A DNA stretch of 13,869 nucleotides, taken from NCBI GenBank assembly GCA_946886255.1, contig CAMPIG010000076.1, forward strand, positions 1-13,869, given 5' to 3'. The DNA is from an uncultured Cellvibrio sp. (GTDB taxonomy: Bacteria; Pseudomonadota; Gammaproteobacteria; Pseudomonadales; Cellvibrionaceae). Numbering within the stretch: position 1 is the stretch's first letter; each line of letters begins with the position of its first letter. The translations under genes and the position numbers were made by a program. Shown one piece after another: positions 5,406 through 12,744 of the stretch. Under the pieces are notes generated by a model. That model was not told where the DNA came from. It saw only the letters and a list, made by a program, of their open reading frames with translations, and did not search any database.

Positions 5406-6137
5406 TTAATTGGCATCACACCAGGCTTGCGCTTCAGCCATCGTGAGTGTGCCTTCGTAGATAGCACGCCCGGTAATGGCGCCGCAGATACCTTGGTGGG
5501 CTTCGGCTTTGAGCGCTTTGATATCGTTCATGTCAGTGATGCCGCCGGAGGCAATCACCGGAATGCTTGACGCCTGGGCCATGGCTACGGTGGCTTGGAC
5601 ATTCACGCCTTGCATCATGCCATCGCGGGCGATGTCGGTGTAGACAATGCTGCTCACGCCGTCCTGTTCAAAGCGTTTAGCCAGTTCGCTGGCCTGGATA
5701 TTGGACACTTCGGCCCAGCCGTCAGTGGCGACCCAGCCGTCTTTGGCATCGAGGCCGACGATAATGTGGCCGGGGAATTGTTTGCACATGTCGGTGACGA
5801 ACTGCGGTTCTTTTACGGCTTTGGTGCCGATGATGACGTATTGCACTCCGGCCTGGAGGTAGTGTTCGATAGTTTCGGCGCTGCGAATGCCGCCGCCGAT
5901 CTGGATCGGCAGTGTGGGGTAGGCTTTGGCGATGGCGGTGACAACGCTACCGTTGATGGGTTTGCCTTCGAAGGCGCCGTTGAGGTCGACCAAGTGGAGG
6001 CGGCGGCAGCCTTGGTCGACCCATTGTTTGGCCATGGCGACGGGGTCGTCGGAGAAGACGGTGGAGTCGTCCATAAGGCCTTGGCGGAGTCGGACGCATT
6101 GACCGTTTTTTAAGTCTATGGCGGGGATAATCAGCAT
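5406..6137 (-). CDS. hisA: Phosphoribosylformimino-5-aminoimidazole carboxamide ribotide isomerase
   Basis: A 243-aa (beta/alpha)8-barrel that isomerises ProFAR to PRFAR, the step just before HisH/HisF. It starts [18 protein letters not shown] with the catalytic D8, and the second catalytic acid is D130 in [10 protein letters not shown]. The phosphate-binding loops GGGIR (81-85) and ASGGI in the C-terminal half are intact, and the length matches the family. The ribosome binding site is weak (GAGAT, about 6 bases ahead). The gene is separated from hisH by about 155 bases that contain a palindromic repeat element, much wider than the other operon gaps. Its translation and message level may therefore be set partly by that structure, which is inference. 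Confidence 0.98.
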
Positions 6138-6292: not shown

Positions 6293-6937
6293 TCAAGCTT
6301 TGCCATCCCAATGTAAAAAATTCTCTAACAATTGCAGGCCGGCGGTGTGGCTTTTTTCCGGGTGGAATTGCACGGCGAACAGGTTGTCGCGCGCCAGGGC
6401 GGCGTCGAAGCGTACGCCGTAGTCGCAGGTGGCGGCGACCAGTTGGCGGTCCTGGGCGTGCACGTAGTATGAGTGCACAAAGTAAAACCGGCTGAACTGG
6501 GGGATGTCGGCCCATAGGGGGTGGGGCTTTTGTTCGACCTGGTTCCAGCCCATGTGGGGGACCTTCAGCGGTATGCCGTCGTGTTGGTGTTCGCCGAAGA
6601 ATTTGACCTGGCCAGGCAAAATGCCGATGCAGTCTACGCCGTTGTTCTCTTCGCTGTATTCCATGATTGCTTGCATGCCGACACAAATACCCAGTACCGG
6701 TTTGCCGGTGGCGATTTGTTCGCGCAGGAGTTGGCCGAAGCCGAGGCGATTGATTTCGGCCATGCAGTCGCGGATGGCGCCGACGCCGGGGAAGATGACG
6801 CGGTGGGCGTCGGCGACCTGTGCGGGGGCGTCAGTGACGATGACGCGCATGTCGGGCGCGACGTGGCTGAGCGCGCTGGCAACGGAGTGGAGGTTGCCCA
6901 TGCCGTAGTCGATGACGGCAACTGTTTGTCTGGTCAT
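6293..6937 (-). CDS. hisH: Imidazole glycerol phosphate synthase, glutamine amidotransferase subunit
   Basis: A 214-aa class I glutamine amidotransferase that supplies ammonia to HisF. The opening [11 protein letters not shown] and the oxyanion-region motif PGVGA are typical. The nucleophile is C85 in GICVGMQ (usually GICLGMQ), and the other triad residues are H192 and E194 in VQFHPEKS. The frame could also start at a TTG at 6949, four codons earlier; I prefer the ATG at 6937, although neither has a clear ribosome binding site. The gene lies 55 bases after hisB in the same operon. The downstream spacer to hisA carries the palindromic repeat, so hisH and hisF, which form one enzyme, are separated by that element and by hisA. 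Confidence 0.97.
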
Positions 6938-6992
6938 AGGTTTAATCAAAAAAATTCGGGTTGAGTGCGGCAGACGTGCCGATTTACTTTAC

Positions 6993-7790: not shown

Positions 7791-8423
7791 ATGCCTACAC
7801 TGTTCCGTTTAGCCCGTCTTGCTTCCCTGCCATTGCTGTTCGCTGCCGCACCCGTTCTGGCCCAGGATGTGTATGAAAGCCGCACCTACGCCCCTACTAG
7901 CGGCTGGAGCTGGTCGGCCCATGTGGATCACATCAATATCGATGATGAAGCAGCAGCCGAACAAGGCGTTGAAGATCACTTCACTGCCGTCGGCGGCGCT
8001 GCCGAGTATTACACCAACGACAGCGATATGACCCTGTCGATCGGGTTGAGCATCATGCTGTACGAGGATAACGCCGAGTTCAGTCAGTACGTGGAAGACT
8101 GGTGGGGCGATGAATATTACGAGAGTTCCGATGCCACTGGAGGCCAGGCGTTTATTGAATATGGCCCCAAATACAAGTTTGGCGCCAACGACAGCAGCTT
8201 TTTCGTGGTGCGCGGCGGCTTGAGCGGCATCTTCTTTTCCGAGCGTAGCATCAGCAGCTGCGACAACTGTTATTCAGAAGACATTGATATTGATGGCGGG
8301 CTCTATGGCGTTTTGGGCGTAGGTCACAAGCTGGGTTACTTCGATATCGGCCTGCAATTTCACCAATATTTCACTGGTGACCTCGATAACGGCTTCCGTC
8401 TCAAGCTGTCATCTTCTTTCTAG
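7791..8423 (+). CDS. Secreted, probable outer-membrane beta-barrel protein of unknown function
   Basis: A 210-aa protein with a clear signal peptide (about residues 1-24, ending PVLA before QDVYES). The mature part is acidic and rich in Tyr, Trp, Gly and Ser. It alternates in short beta-strand-like stretches such as WSWSAHVDHI, TLSIGLSIML, FFVVRGGLSG and YFDIGLQFHQ. It ends in Phe after FRLKLSS, the C-terminal pattern recognised by the BAM complex. One CxxC pair (C157 and C160, CDNC) sits in an acidic loop and could form a disulfide or bind metal. I do not recognise a named family. The ATG at 7791 has AGGAG 5 bases upstream; an in-frame GTG at 7707 would place 28 residues ahead of the signal and is less likely. 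It is divergent from hisB, and a functional link to histidine synthesis is not indicated. Confidence 0.75.
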   Translation: MPTLFRLARLASLPLLFAAAPVLAQDVYESRTYAPTSGWSWSAHVDHINIDDEAAAEQGVEDHFTAVGGAAEYYTNDSDMTLSIGLSIMLYEDNAEFSQYVEDWWGDEYYESSDATGGQAFIEYGPKYKFGANDSSFFVVRGGLSGIFFSERSISSCDNCYSEDIDIDGGLYGVLGVGHKLGYFDIGLQFHQYFTGDLDNGFRLKLSSSF

Positions 8424-8514
8424 CGGGGCGACCTGCGGGGGAGGCTCATGGACATAAGAATACGCTGCAAGGACGCAGACCTTTAAACCCCTCCATCATC
8501 CATCTGTCCAAGTA

Positions 8515-8528
8515 TTGATCCCGATCAA
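8515..8528. promoter_or_regulatory. Perfect FNR/Anr-type binding site
   Basis: TTGATCCCGATCAA is an exact TTGAT-N4-ATCAA palindrome, the consensus for FNR, Anr and related oxygen-sensing regulators. Its centre (8521.5) would be at -41.5 for a start near 8563, the class II activation geometry. That start would be about 23 bases before the small gene's ATG at 8586. A poor -10 (TACGTT, 8556-8561, or nearby) fits a promoter that needs an activator. Confidence 0.8.
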
Positions 8529-8585
8529 TATCCCTAAGGGTCAACGGCTCCAAGATACGTTAAACGTCATCAATAGGAGGACATC

Positions 8586-8711
8586 ATGGAAATCGCCGGT
8601 ATCATTGCGATTATTTGTCTGGGCGGCAGTCTGGCGCTGCTTGCATTGGGTGGTGCATTGTTAATCCCCATCGACAATCACCTTCACCCGGACAATTCAC
8701 ATCATCATTAA
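8586..8711 (+). CDS. 41-aa membrane protein with His-rich tail
   Basis: A short open frame of 41 codons plus stop. The ribosome binding site is strong: AGGAGG at 8575-8580, 5 bases ahead of the ATG. After MEIAG comes one hydrophobic segment of about 24 residues (roughly 4-28) with Gly-Gly pairs at 13-14 and 22-23, long enough to cross the membrane once. A polar tail, starting IDNHLHPDN, ends in three His; five of the last ten residues are His. The tail could bind a metal or haem, but this is inference. Low-oxygen terminal oxidases commonly have tiny single-helix subunits of about this size (CydX, CcoQ), but I see no sequence motif that ties this protein to them, and no oxidase gene lies in the window. 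The perfect FNR/Anr box upstream predicts induction at low oxygen. I do not recognise the family. Confidence 0.7.
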   Translation: MEIAGIIAIICLGGSLALLALGGALLIPIDNHLHPDNSHHH

Positions 8712-8724
8712 CCTAATAAAGTAG

Positions 8725-8744
8725 CGGTAGCTTAGAAGCTGCCG
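8725..8744 (+). other. Hairpin after the small membrane protein gene
   Basis: CGGTAGCTT and AAGCTGCCG pair over nine positions (one G-U) with almost no loop; opening the inner pair gives a TAGA tetraloop. No T-run follows, so it is not a standard terminator. It may protect the 3' end of the short message or be chance. Confidence 0.3.
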
Positions 8745-8747
8745 GTC

Positions 8748-8776
8748 TGGTCTGCCCGTAGCAGCACACCTATAAT
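8748..8776 (+). promoter_or_regulatory. Candidate sigma70 promoter of the glycosyltransferase operon
   Basis: A perfect TATAAT (8771-8776) stands 17 bp after TGGTCT (8748-8753, three of six). Transcription would start near 8783, about 60 bases ahead of the first gene. Confidence 0.5.
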
Positions 8777-8843
8777 GCCCGCACGCTTTTGATGGGCATA
8801 CGCATTCAGCGGCGCCCCTTGTTAACGGACGCTGCTGTTACTT

Positions 8844-10226
8844 ATGTCCTACCATCCTGTCACGCATGCTGGAGCGCCTGCCGCTCCGCGATCACCCGTC
8901 GATACCCGGCCCGCACACCATGGCCTGCGAATCTGCCTGTTGGGATATCGCAGCCACCCTCATGTCGGAGGGCAGGGAATTTACCTGCATTACCTCAGCA
9001 AAGCCTTGGTTGAACTGGGCCATCAGGTGGATGTTATCTCTGGTCCACCTTATCCCGAACTCGATAGCCGCGTGACACTCATCTGCTTATCCAGCCTCGA
9101 TCTCTATGCCGTGGAAAAACCCTTCCTTGCATTGCGTTGGCACCACCTGCGTTCTTTTACTGACGTGTATGAATGGTGGAGCAAAATCAGCGGCAGCTTT
9201 GCCGAGCCCTATACCTTCGGTCGACGCCTGGTGAATTATTTCCGGCAACAGCCGACGCGGTATGACCTCATCCATGACAATCAAAGCCTGTGTTACGGGT
9301 TGTTAAACTTGCAAGCACAGGGGCTTCCGGTTGTGGCGACGGTCCATCATCCCATCACCCGCGACCTGGAATTGGCTTTAGCCTCCGCAAAAAGTCGCGG
9401 TCATCGTTGGCTGATCAAACGCTGGTATAACTTTTTACCAATGCAGAAAAAGGTGGTGCAGCGATTGCGGCATGTGATTACGGTTTCCGAGCAATCGCGA
9501 CGCGACATTGCAGACGCCTTCGCACGTCCGATACACAAGATCCAGGTCATCCCCAACGGCATTGATGTAGACACCTTCAAACCTCTCCCTGATATTCAAC
9601 GCAACCCCTGGCAGTTGATGACGACGGCATCTTCCGACCAACCTTTGAAAGGACTGTCAGTTTTATTGCGCGCGCTGGCCAAATTGCGCAAAAAAAATCC
9701 CAAGGTATCACTGCTGGTTATCGGTAAATTAAAACCCGACGGCGCCACCGAACGGGAACTGCAAAAGTTGAATTTATATGACTGTGTGCAATTTATTTCC
9801 GGCATTTCTGCTGAGGACATGGTTAAGCATTACGCTGCCTCGTGCATTGCTGTCGTGCCGTCGCTCTATGAAGGCTTCGGGTTGCCCGCCGGCGAAGCTA
9901 TGGCGTGCGGCACCCCCCTCGTGTGCAGCGATGGCGGTGCATTGCCGGAGGTAGTAGGCAATGCGGCCCACCTGGTCAAGGCAGGCGATGTCGAGGACTT
10001 ATATCAGGCGCTCGATTATTTGCTGCAACAACCCGTACAACGTGCACTGTTAGGCCAACGGGGACGCGAACACATATTGCAACAGTTAAGCTGGTCTGTG
10101 GTTGCACAACAAATGACGGCTTACTATCGCCAGATGTTAGGCCAACACTCCACCAGCGAATCGATCACGCCGTTGGCCGAAAAATCTTCCACAGCAGTGG
10201 CCACTGAAGTCTATGTTAACGATTGA
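8844..10226 (+). CDS. GT4-family glycosyltransferase
   Basis: A 460-aa retaining glycosyltransferase with the GT-B fold. It probably transfers a sugar from a nucleotide donor in the cytoplasm; donor and acceptor cannot be read from the sequence. The N-terminal Rossmann domain carries RICLLGY and the HVGGQGIYLHYLSKAL acceptor-side motif (residues 40-55). The linker motif VIPNGIDVDTFKP lies near 235. The C-terminal donor-binding domain has the EX7E motif, E343 and E351 in YEGFGLPAGEAMACGTP, followed by DGGALPEVV. The first 27 residues are Ala/Pro/His-rich and look disordered. No good ribosome binding site is seen before the ATG, but no other in-frame start lies before the core. The gene overlaps the next by 14 bases, which points to translational coupling in a three-gene operon. 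Confidence 0.9.
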   Translation: MSYHPVTHAGAPAAPRSPVDTRPAHHGLRICLLGYRSHPHVGGQGIYLHYLSKALVELGHQVDVISGPPYPELDSRVTLICLSSLDLYAVEKPFLALRWHHLRSFTDVYEWWSKISGSFAEPYTFGRRLVNYFRQQPTRYDLIHDNQSLCYGLLNLQAQGLPVVATVHHPITRDLELALASAKSRGHRWLIKRWYNFLPMQKKVVQRLRHVITVSEQSRRDIADAFARPIHKIQVIPNGIDVDTFKPLPDIQRNPWQLMTTASSDQPLKGLSVLLRALAKLRKKNPKVSLLVIGKLKPDGATERELQKLNLYDCVQFISGISAEDMVKHYAASCIAVVPSLYEGFGLPAGEAMACGTPLVCSDGGALPEVVGNAAHLVKAGDVEDLYQALDYLLQQPVQRALLGQRGREHILQQLSWSVVAQQMTAYYRQMLGQHSTSESITPLAEKSSTAVATEVYVND

Positions 10227-10944
10227 TTTTAATTATTTTCCATTACATGTTGGCGACCGTGTCCTGGATATCGGTTGTGGCGAAGGGCGGCATGTCATCA
10301 ATGCGTATTTGCATGGCGATATCACAGCTATCGGTGTTGACCTGAACCCCTCCGACTTGCGTATCGCACGCGAACGCTTTGCACCTTTTGCGCAACCAGA
10401 AAATACGCAAAAATATTTTTCCCTGCAAGTCGCTGATGCTACGCGCCTTCCCTTCGCTAATCAGAGTTTCGATAAAATTATTTGCAGCGAAGTACTTGAA
10501 CATATTCATGATTACGAAGCAGTGTTGCGGGAAATCCGCCGCGTGTTAAAACCTGACGGCTTATTGGCGATTAGTGTTCCGCGTTATTGGCCCGAAAAAA
10601 TTTGCTGGCAACTCAGTCGCGCTTACCATGAAGTGGAAGGTGGCCATATACGTATCTTCAACGCACGACAGTTGCGTCATACCGTGGAGGCGCACAATAT
10701 GCAGTTCCTCCACCGCCACTGGGCTCATGCATTGCACTCGCCGTTCTGGTGGCTGAAATGTTTGTTGTGGGATAAACAGGATGACTCACGTCTGATAAAA
10801 CTCTACCATCGCCTGCTGGTGTGGGACTTGATGCAACGCCCCTGGCTGACCCGCACACTGGAGAAATGCCTGAACCCACTGCTGGGCAAAAGTGTGGTGA
10901 TGTATTTTCAACAGCGCGCAACGGACAAAGCGACCGAATCATGA
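10213..10944 (+). CDS. Class I SAM-dependent methyltransferase
   Basis: A 243-aa enzyme with a methyltransferase-11-like Rossmann domain in the first two-thirds. Motif I is VLDIGCGEGRH (about 17-27), the ribose-binding acid is D43 in GVDLNP, and the adenine-side acid is D75 in VADATRLPF. SEVLEHIHDYEAVLREIRRVLKPDG (92-116) is the usual post-motif helix and strand. The C-terminal part contains many Trp, His and Arg residues and may bind the acceptor. The target is unknown; the neighbours suggest a sugar hydroxyl or glycolipid. The ATG lies 14 bases inside the end of the glycosyltransferase gene, and its stop overlaps the start of the third gene (ATGA), so the three proteins are made as one coupled unit. 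Confidence 0.9.
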   Translation: MLTIDFNYFPLHVGDRVLDIGCGEGRHVINAYLHGDITAIGVDLNPSDLRIARERFAPFAQPENTQKYFSLQVADATRLPFANQSFDKIICSEVLEHIHDYEAVLREIRRVLKPDGLLAISVPRYWPEKICWQLSRAYHEVEGGHIRIFNARQLRHTVEAHNMQFLHRHWAHALHSPFWWLKCLLWDKQDDSRLIKLYHRLLVWDLMQRPWLTRTLEKCLNPLLGKSVVMYFQQRATDKATES

Positions 10945-12008
10945 ATGAATTATTGCTGAGCAAAGGATTTTTTCCCGAGACACTGTTGCGACCAACAGTG
11001 ACTTACATTCTGCAAGCTCAATTACCCAACGGTTGCATTCCCTGGTTTCATAACGGAAAAGCCGACCCATGGGATCATATTGAAGCCGCCATGGGACTCA
11101 CCATTGGCGGCGAATATACTTCTGCACAACGCGCCTACCGGTGGCTGGCCAGCGAGCAATTAGCGGATGGCAGTTGGTGGGCCAATTATTACGCTAACCA
11201 GCCGGTGGATCGCAACCATCGCGAAACCAATTTTGTTGCGTATATTGCGACGGGACTCTGGCATTATTTTTTAGTCACCGGCGATAAGACGTTTCTGGCT
11301 GAACTCTTTGCCTGCGTTGAGCGAGCCATCGATTTTGTTGTGCGCTATCAATCACCAACTGGCGAAATCTATTGGGCAGTAGCGGAAGACGGCTCACCCA
11401 AAGAAGATGCGTTAGTGACGGCGTGTGCATCCATCTACAAAAGCCTCGACTGCGCCAACGCCATCGCTGTTACCCTCGCTATCGATAAACCGTCCTGGCG
11501 CAAAGCACAGGCTCGATTGGGCAAAACCCTGCGTAAACACCCCGAATGTTTTGACCGTACCTGGGAAAGCAAAGAACGCTTTTCCATGGACTGGTTTTAC
11601 CCGATCCTCACCGGCGTTATCACCGGCAAAGCGGCGCACCAACGCATCGATAGAAAATGGGCTCTATTTGTAGAAAACAATATCGGTTGCCGCTGCGTAA
11701 GCGATGAACCCTGGGTAACCGTAGCGGAATCCTGCGAACTGACTCTGGCATTGCTCGCTGCTGGCGACCACGCGCGTGCGCTGCATTTATTCAGCTGGTT
11801 ACATCAGTTTATGGATGAAGATGGCGGTTATTGGACGGGCTATAATTTCCGTGACAAGTTGATTTGGCCGAAGGAAAAAACTACTTGGACGGCGGGGGCC
11901 ATTTTATTGGCGGCGGATGCGTTGATAGAACACACTGGCGCGGCTCATTTATTTACCCAGGCCGTCGAGATTCCAAATACTATCGAAAATAGTTTTCTGC
12001 ACAAATAA
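10941..12008 (+). CDS. (alpha/alpha)-toroid protein, prenyltransferase/glycosidase-like
   Basis: A 355-aa soluble protein of repeated helical hairpins, the pattern of (alpha/alpha)6-type barrels shared by terpene cyclases, protein prenyltransferases and several glycosidases. Recurrent signatures are GCIPWFHNGKADPWDHIEAA (31-50), LADGSWWANYY (74-84), GEIYWAVAEDG (141-151) and EDGGYWTGYNF (293-303). These repeated D/E-G-x-x-W turns resemble the QW-like repeats of such folds. D43, E48, D76 and E210 are possible acids, but I cannot assign a catalytic pair. I recall similar proteins being annotated 'prenyltransferase', which may reflect the fold only. No signal peptide is seen. The ATG at 10941 overlaps the methyltransferase stop (ATGA); the frame runs open to 10821, but that stretch is inside the methyltransferase gene. 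The context suggests work on the same glycan. Confidence 0.7.
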   Translation: MNELLLSKGFFPETLLRPTVTYILQAQLPNGCIPWFHNGKADPWDHIEAAMGLTIGGEYTSAQRAYRWLASEQLADGSWWANYYANQPVDRNHRETNFVAYIATGLWHYFLVTGDKTFLAELFACVERAIDFVVRYQSPTGEIYWAVAEDGSPKEDALVTACASIYKSLDCANAIAVTLAIDKPSWRKAQARLGKTLRKHPECFDRTWESKERFSMDWFYPILTGVITGKAAHQRIDRKWALFVENNIGCRCVSDEPWVTVAESCELTLALLAAGDHARALHLFSWLHQFMDEDGGYWTGYNFRDKLIWPKEKTTWTAGAILLAADALIEHTGAAHLFTQAVEIPNTIENSFLHK

Positions 12009-12252: not shown

Positions 12253-12744
12253 TTATTTAACCACTGGCACTCTCGGCGTCTCGTTAACCGCCATAAAACG
12301 AATCGCCATCGGGTAATTGCGAATTACGCCGTCTTTCGCGTTGATTGCACCCATCACTGTGAAGATGATCGAACAGACGATCAACGCCAGCAGCAGGAAA
12401 ACACCGACAACAATTACCATCAGGATGATGCAACCAATAGTGTAGATAAACGCGCTGATGACCCAGTTAAAGATCACCCGCCCCTGTTGGTCAATATAAT
12501 CATCATCCTTCTTGGTCAACCACATAATCAGGGGGACCACCCAACCAAGCACCGGCAGGACAAAACAACAAAACTGCGAGAAGTGCATAATCATGCTGTA
12601 GCTGCGACTGTCCATATTGCCCAAATCCAGGGATTGGACGGGTTTATCTTCCAATGCCTGGGCTTTGCCCTTCTGAAATTCCTCCTCTGTAATGATCCCC
12701 TTTTCCTTCAACTCATTAAGCTTTTCTATTTTATCGAGATCCAT
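12253..12744 (-). CDS. SHOCT and DUF4870 domain membrane protein
   Basis: A 163-aa protein. The N-terminus (about 6-31) has the SHOCT pattern of LNELKEKGIITEEEFQKGKA, a short helical oligomerisation module. A DUF4870-like membrane domain follows, beginning HFSQFCCFVLPVLGWVVPLIMWL (54-76), then a charged loop KKDDDYIDQQGRVIFNW, and a long hydrophobic stretch (about 92-135) that can hold two helices. The N-terminus and the loop are probably cytoplasmic. Its function is unknown. AAGGA about 6 bases upstream supports the start. The gene begins 38 bases after the XRE regulator stop on the same strand, so the two are likely cotranscribed, and the regulator may control it. Confidence 0.85.
   Translation of the reverse strand: MDLDKIEKLNELKEKGIITEEEFQKGKAQALEDKPVQSLDLGNMDSRSYSMIMHFSQFCCFVLPVLGWVVPLIMWLTKKDDDYIDQQGRVIFNWVISAFIYTIGCIILMVIVVGVFLLLALIVCSIIFTVMGAINAKDGVIRNYPMAIRFMAVNETPRVPVVK

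Follow-up and report, generated by a model that had tools for sequence, protein, structure and literature searches.

A 41-codon gene preceded by an exact FNR/Anr box is found at positions 8586 to 8711 (+ strand) of the window, which is the whole stretch of 13,869 nucleotides of uncultured Cellvibrio sp. DNA that was analyzed. Judged from its homologues, the gene is a member of a conserved protein family. Its predicted product consists of one hydrophobic helix (approximately residues 3 to 28) followed by a histidine-rich tail, IDNHLHPDNSHHH. We consider it reasonably probable that this is a stand-alone gene activated by an FNR/Anr-type regulator, and that its product is an accessory peptide that crosses the membrane once and has a tail for binding metal or haem.

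Annotation often omits small membrane proteins, some of which turned out to be oxidase subunits, such as CydX (PMC4325964, in the portion available) and CcoM (PMC10433244, likewise). The small gene brings with it a testable hypothesis, namely induction at low oxygen together with metal binding by the tail. Among the 12 papers listed by one literature search on Cellvibrio, FNR and oxygen, none names Cellvibrio in its title, so low-oxygen control may be little explored in this genus.

The FNR/Anr box

A sequence-only reading of this DNA had claimed an exact TTGAT-N4-ATCAA site, and the site is indeed present. The palindrome TTGATcccgATCAA occupies positions 8515 to 8528 on the + strand (centre 8521.5), and nothing else in the window comes within one mismatch of the FNR/Anr motif. 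Of 1000 Markov copies of the window, 18 contained an exact site (mean 0.018 per copy), and the mean for the 420-nucleotide intergenic stretch from 8424 to 8843 was 0.0008 in 20000 Markov copies. The box is real and is unlikely to have arisen by chance. From its end to the ATG at 8586 are 57 nucleotides, and the ORF that begins there has a Shine-Dalgarno sequence. The Anr motif is printed as 5'-TTGATNNNNATCAA-3' in the available text of PMC6588701, which assigns genes to the regulon by an intergenic TTGAT-N4-ATCAA site no more than 300 bp from the start codon; TTGATcccgATCAA has both this motif and such a position. An Anr-type regulator is plausible in Cellvibrio because, according to the part of PMC12459779 that is available, this genus has genes that are close relatives of Pseudomonas anr. 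The small gene is probably under FNR/Anr control.

The same reading placed the box at the distance typical of class II activation, a claim that depends on an assumed transcription start at 8563. The hexamer with suitable spacing for that start, CAAGAT (8551 to 8556, + strand), is a weak -10-like element that agrees with TATAAT at three of six positions, counted by eye, and a generic promoter scan called nothing at the corresponding position. The sole match from that scan (8578 to 8605) overlaps the beginning of the frame, and a single match is no more than chance would produce (mean of 0.6 in shuffles). A 12-codon frame behind GGGGGAGG (8448 to 8486, + strand) is located between the upstream outer-membrane protein gene and the box, and it bears no sign of use.

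The weak -10 element is in keeping with an alternative in which the gene is real and is not controlled by oxygen. The palindrome would then be fortuitous or would serve another factor of the Crp/FNR family, for example one of the NO-sensing Dnr type, and Anr and Dnr sites are described as indistinguishable in the available text of PMC6588701. Moreover, many features were inspected beforehand, so a single striking match to a box is less surprising than the raw expectation suggests. A chance palindrome is nevertheless hard to reconcile with the low expectation for the intergenic stretch and with its position 57 nucleotides from the ATG of a conserved ORF that is led by a Shine-Dalgarno sequence. 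We regard this alternative as unlikely, and control by an FNR/Anr-type regulator is the reading that we prefer.

The presumed transcript and neighboring genes

Just 3' of the stop codon is a hairpin (8725 to 8744, + strand), which was read from the sequence and has no T run behind it. Its inner seven pairs are present in the centroid fold and absent from the minimum-energy fold, and a terminator scan did not call it a terminator. It is possible that this hairpin forms the 3' end of the transcript. A terminator-like hairpin at 8634 to 8656 lies inside the 41-codon frame and not behind it, and no intrinsic terminator was found on the + strand 3' of the small ORF.

Such a transcript could resemble PhrS of Pseudomonas aeruginosa, with which it shares an Anr-type box, an inferred short, free-standing RNA and one conserved small ORF. 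If so, the Anr-induced RNA of about 200 nucleotides would have two functions, chiefly regulation by base pairing and in addition the coding of a conserved small peptide. However, the assumed RNA (8563 to 8780) is no more stably folded than its shuffles (z -0.07), and the lack of an intrinsic terminator behind the ORF on the + strand likewise counts against this possibility. In the window, no Rfam family reached its gathering score; the two matches in the stretch, sR20 (E 2.6) and RT-2 (E 5.6), are weak and were judged to be due to chance. A mainly regulatory RNA of this kind therefore seems quite improbable.

The region downstream of the small gene contains a tight cluster of overlapping genes (8844 to 12008, + strand) that encode a GT4 glycosyltransferase and a methyltransferase. 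The cluster also encodes a protein with weak matches to oligosaccharide-amylase and squalene-cyclase families. In a plasmid collection, the best match to the glycosyltransferase was 44% identical and came from Nonomuraea, and the other 59 among the matches listed were at most 29% identical. In the gap that separates the glycosyltransferase gene from the small gene is a TATAAT hexamer (8771 to 8776, + strand), possibly a separate promoter; it is absent from the output of the generic promoter scan.

Because the cluster begins near 8844 on the same strand, with 132 nucleotides between the stop codon of the small gene and the next start, the 41-codon frame might be a leader peptide or an upstream frame for the cluster. 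The conservation of the protein itself argues against this arrangement, as does the TATAAT hexamer, which offers the cluster a promoter of its own although the promoter scan does not list it. Also, a membrane helix with a His tail is not known as a typical form of attenuator. A leader function is thus very unlikely, and we retain the interpretation of a stand-alone gene.

The gene upstream of the box (7791 to 8423, + strand) encodes an outer-membrane protein that matches no Pfam or NCBIfam family and has 168 homologues. Among the best 120 of these 168, eight are named, comprising seven from Cellvibrio and one from a Moraxellaceae MAG (P0125), and this protein thereby points to Cellvibrio or a near relative as the source of the DNA. 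The AlphaFold2 model, with its eight long strands, resembles an 8-stranded barrel (pTM 0.73). Of the 168 sequences, 15 were aligned, and all of these share a pair of cysteines (C157 and C160, within C-x2-C-x-SEDI).

Around this gene, the minus strand carries hisB and hisF, which were assigned by family matches, as well as hisA (5406 to 6137) and hisH (6293 to 6949), which are presumed from their place and sequence. The + strand carries genes for an EnvC-like protein (below its cut-off), a carboxy-terminal processing protease and a divergent polysaccharide deacetylase. The product of a minus-strand gene (12253 to 12744) has a SHOCT motif at its N terminus, and DUF4870 comes after it.

The 41-residue protein and its homologues

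As the sequence-only reading had described, an AGGAGG sequence (8575 to 8580, + strand) precedes the ATG at 8586 by five nucleotides and is followed by a frame of 41 codons. Because an in-frame stop codon, TAG, at 8574 to 8576 closes the frame upstream, a longer protein is excluded. The encoded protein, MEIAGIIAIICLGGSLALLALGGALLIPIDNHLHPDNSHHH, has the hydrophobic segment and the histidine-rich end that were claimed for it: hydropathy is as high as 2.59 over residues 3 to 21, five of the last ten residues are His, and the whole protein is devoid of Lys and Arg. AlphaFold2 predicts a helix at residues 3 to 33 (mean pLDDT 77.9) and a low-confidence tail. The helix has no charged residues and many Gly and Ala residues, and the peptide would be inserted into a membrane.

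Homologues were identified among 5.8 billion predicted proteins. With a single-sequence query, all five candidates that were scored proved to be homologues, and with an alignment as the query, 6 of 13 candidates did. The search admitted lengths of 0.55 to 1.75 times that of the query, and each of the six homologous clusters has exactly 41 residues and is 80 to 95% identical to the protein of the window. Together, the clusters sum to 17 member sequences and 116 contigs. Candidates must have exact short words in common with the query, so the family may also have more distant members. The suggestion that gene callers would miss a frame this short needs qualification, as the relatives are predicted proteins in six public clusters, all of them unnamed.

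All seven aligned proteins, consisting of the six clusters and that of the window, retain five His among the last ten residues and lack Lys and Arg. The His tail, whose conservation the original proposal had put up for checking, is conserved at the protein level, with one position moved in the most divergent member, P0007. This protein carries H39T and N37H; having lost H39 and gained H37, it keeps the His count despite the shifted positions. At residues 3 to 28, all seven distinct substitutions stay within the set AVILMFGCW, compared with 45% of random nonsynonymous single changes; the homologues are close relatives picked by similarity, and such picking favors mild changes. Selection is accordingly inferred from few changes. 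No face of the helix is significantly conserved (P approximately 0.35; for small residues, P 0.80).

In a substitution-only simulation without selection, protein identities of 80 to 93% corresponded to DNA identities of approximately 90 to 97%. At approximately 90% DNA identity, the 41-codon frame was intact in about half of the simulated copies, and approximately 0.3 of the copies retained five tail His residues. With DNA identity only estimated, this modeled decay of the frame lends support to selection and is not proof of it.

Very probably, then, the frame is coding, and the proposal of a real mini membrane protein is upheld by six clusters of the same length that have kept both the His-rich tail and the hydrophobicity. 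The contrary view, that this is a chance reading frame in noncoding DNA, is hardly credible: the frame has only 41 codons, its product is masked by SEG as being of low complexity and its third-position G+C (0.51) is below that of the five window genes compared (0.57 to 0.72), yet the tail and hydrophobicity are preserved in those six clusters, and it is one of just two ATG frames of 30 to 60 codons in the window with a Shine-Dalgarno sequence of at least five letters, the other (9961 to 10053) being inside the glycosyltransferase gene.

Several DNA collections were also searched. Genome contigs yielded 10 stretches with the glycosyltransferase as query and 57 with the peptide alignment A1, and none was confirmed in either case. 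The null result for A1 is a weak one, probably because its first row, P0001, was masked by an assumed low-complexity filter: in a control with such filtering, P0001 matched its own DNA only at residues 30 to 41 (E 2e-4), and P0004 and P0007 matched over their full lengths. Another scan with a peptide alignment would have the same masking weakness (41 stretches, none confirmed). No stretch was confirmed among 47 from viral contigs with P0007 as the first row, or among three from a scan with the outer-membrane protein alignment A3. A scan for the pattern of box plus start returned one virus contig (L002), which reads as an unrelated frame and was judged a chance match. In plasmid and phage collections, neither the stretch nor peptide P0001 found a match, and a weak match of P0007 to Arthrobacter (E 3) was also attributed to chance.

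Possible role and comparison with known systems

The small protein has no significant match to any known family by the profile searches conducted. Pfam gave no match for the protein of the window. Four of the seven family members match DUF2970 (PF11174) weakly, with a best E-value of 0.079 and, for P0004, 11.6 bits against a Pfam cut-off of 27 bits, and this assignment was rejected. NCBIfam and PHROGs gave no match for the three of seven proteins that were scanned, and the PDB gave none with the A2 profile. Matches of P0007 in the PDB to MoaB2 (E 7.3) and to cytochrome b6-f subunit 4 (E 8.8) were judged to be chance. No respiratory, metal or haem gene turned up when 12 genes of the window were scanned for family matches. 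The role originally suggested, that of a respiratory subunit, an assembly factor or a handler of metal or haem, hence receives no direct support from family matches or from neighbors.

A mechanism can nonetheless be proposed. At low oxygen, an FNR/Anr-type regulator would bind TTGATcccgATCAA and start transcription approximately 40 nucleotides downstream. The resulting short mRNA, with its strong Shine-Dalgarno sequence, would be translated into a 41-residue, single-pass inner-membrane peptide. Uncharged, Gly/Ala-rich helices are seen where peptides pack onto larger membrane proteins, and the helix, rich in small residues, may pack against a membrane complex. With its five His, the 13-residue tail may be a binding site for haem or a metal ion, or might form a pH-sensitive contact. 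The most likely partner would be a respiratory complex used at low oxygen or the metal supply of such a complex. Low-oxygen oxidases are the first guess because CydX and CcoM are small proteins that serve oxidases, as described in the available portions of PMC4325964 and PMC10433244. A respiratory or metal role for the protein is nevertheless less likely than not. A broader proposal, which we consider somewhat less likely still, is that of an orphan family of the Cellvibrio lineage: an oxygen-switched, single-pass membrane peptide, encoded by a free-standing gene, whose tail-His count is held constant by compensating gain and loss so as to hold metal or haem for a high-affinity oxidase, and whose transcript is perhaps also an RNA regulator.

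CydX/AppX (PF08173), an accessory subunit of cytochrome bd, is likewise a protein of about 40 residues with a single transmembrane helix, and Cellvibrio japonicus is reported to encode an orphan CydX homologue away from cydAB (PMC4325964, in the portion available). The available text of that paper gives a motif, YxxWxxG-x15-E/D, that is present in 97% of CydX homologues. This motif is missing here, and Tyr and Trp are absent from all seven of the small proteins. None of the seven matches PF08173 at E-values up to 10, and E. coli CydX, the positive control, scored 53.9 bits (E 1.8e-14). A profile comparison with E. coli CydX aligned one column with a probability of 0.5%, which is not a meaningful alignment. 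By these sequence comparisons, the 41-residue protein is not CydX.

CcoM, CcoQ and CcoS are small subunits and an assembly factor of cbb3 oxidase, which resemble the protein described here in being very small membrane proteins and are associated with a low-oxygen oxidase. CcoQ and CcoS are very small membrane proteins tied to cbb3 oxidase, and profile libraries would contain models for all three. Identity with a cbb3 small subunit was rejected, given that Pfam (seven of seven proteins) and NCBIfam (three of seven) gave no significant match, that the A2 profile matched nothing in the PDB and that none of the 12 window genes examined for families is a cco gene. CcoM has 36 residues (PMC10433244, in the portion available).

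PhrS of P. aeruginosa is an Anr-dependent RNA of 213 nucleotides that carries a conserved 37-residue peptide of unknown function, according to the available text of PMC8395346 and PMC9308961. In the part of PMC6700203 that is available, the CRISPR function of PhrS in P. aeruginosa is described as unaffected by the ORF. The peptide of the present gene differs in its length of 41 residues and its His-rich tail, and its presumed transcript differs in showing no unusual folding and no Rfam match at gathering score. The likeness lies in the Anr-type box, the presumed short transcript and the conserved small ORF, and by this analogy the Anr-dependent PhrS transcript with its 37-residue peptide is the closest parallel in logic to the small gene of Cellvibrio.
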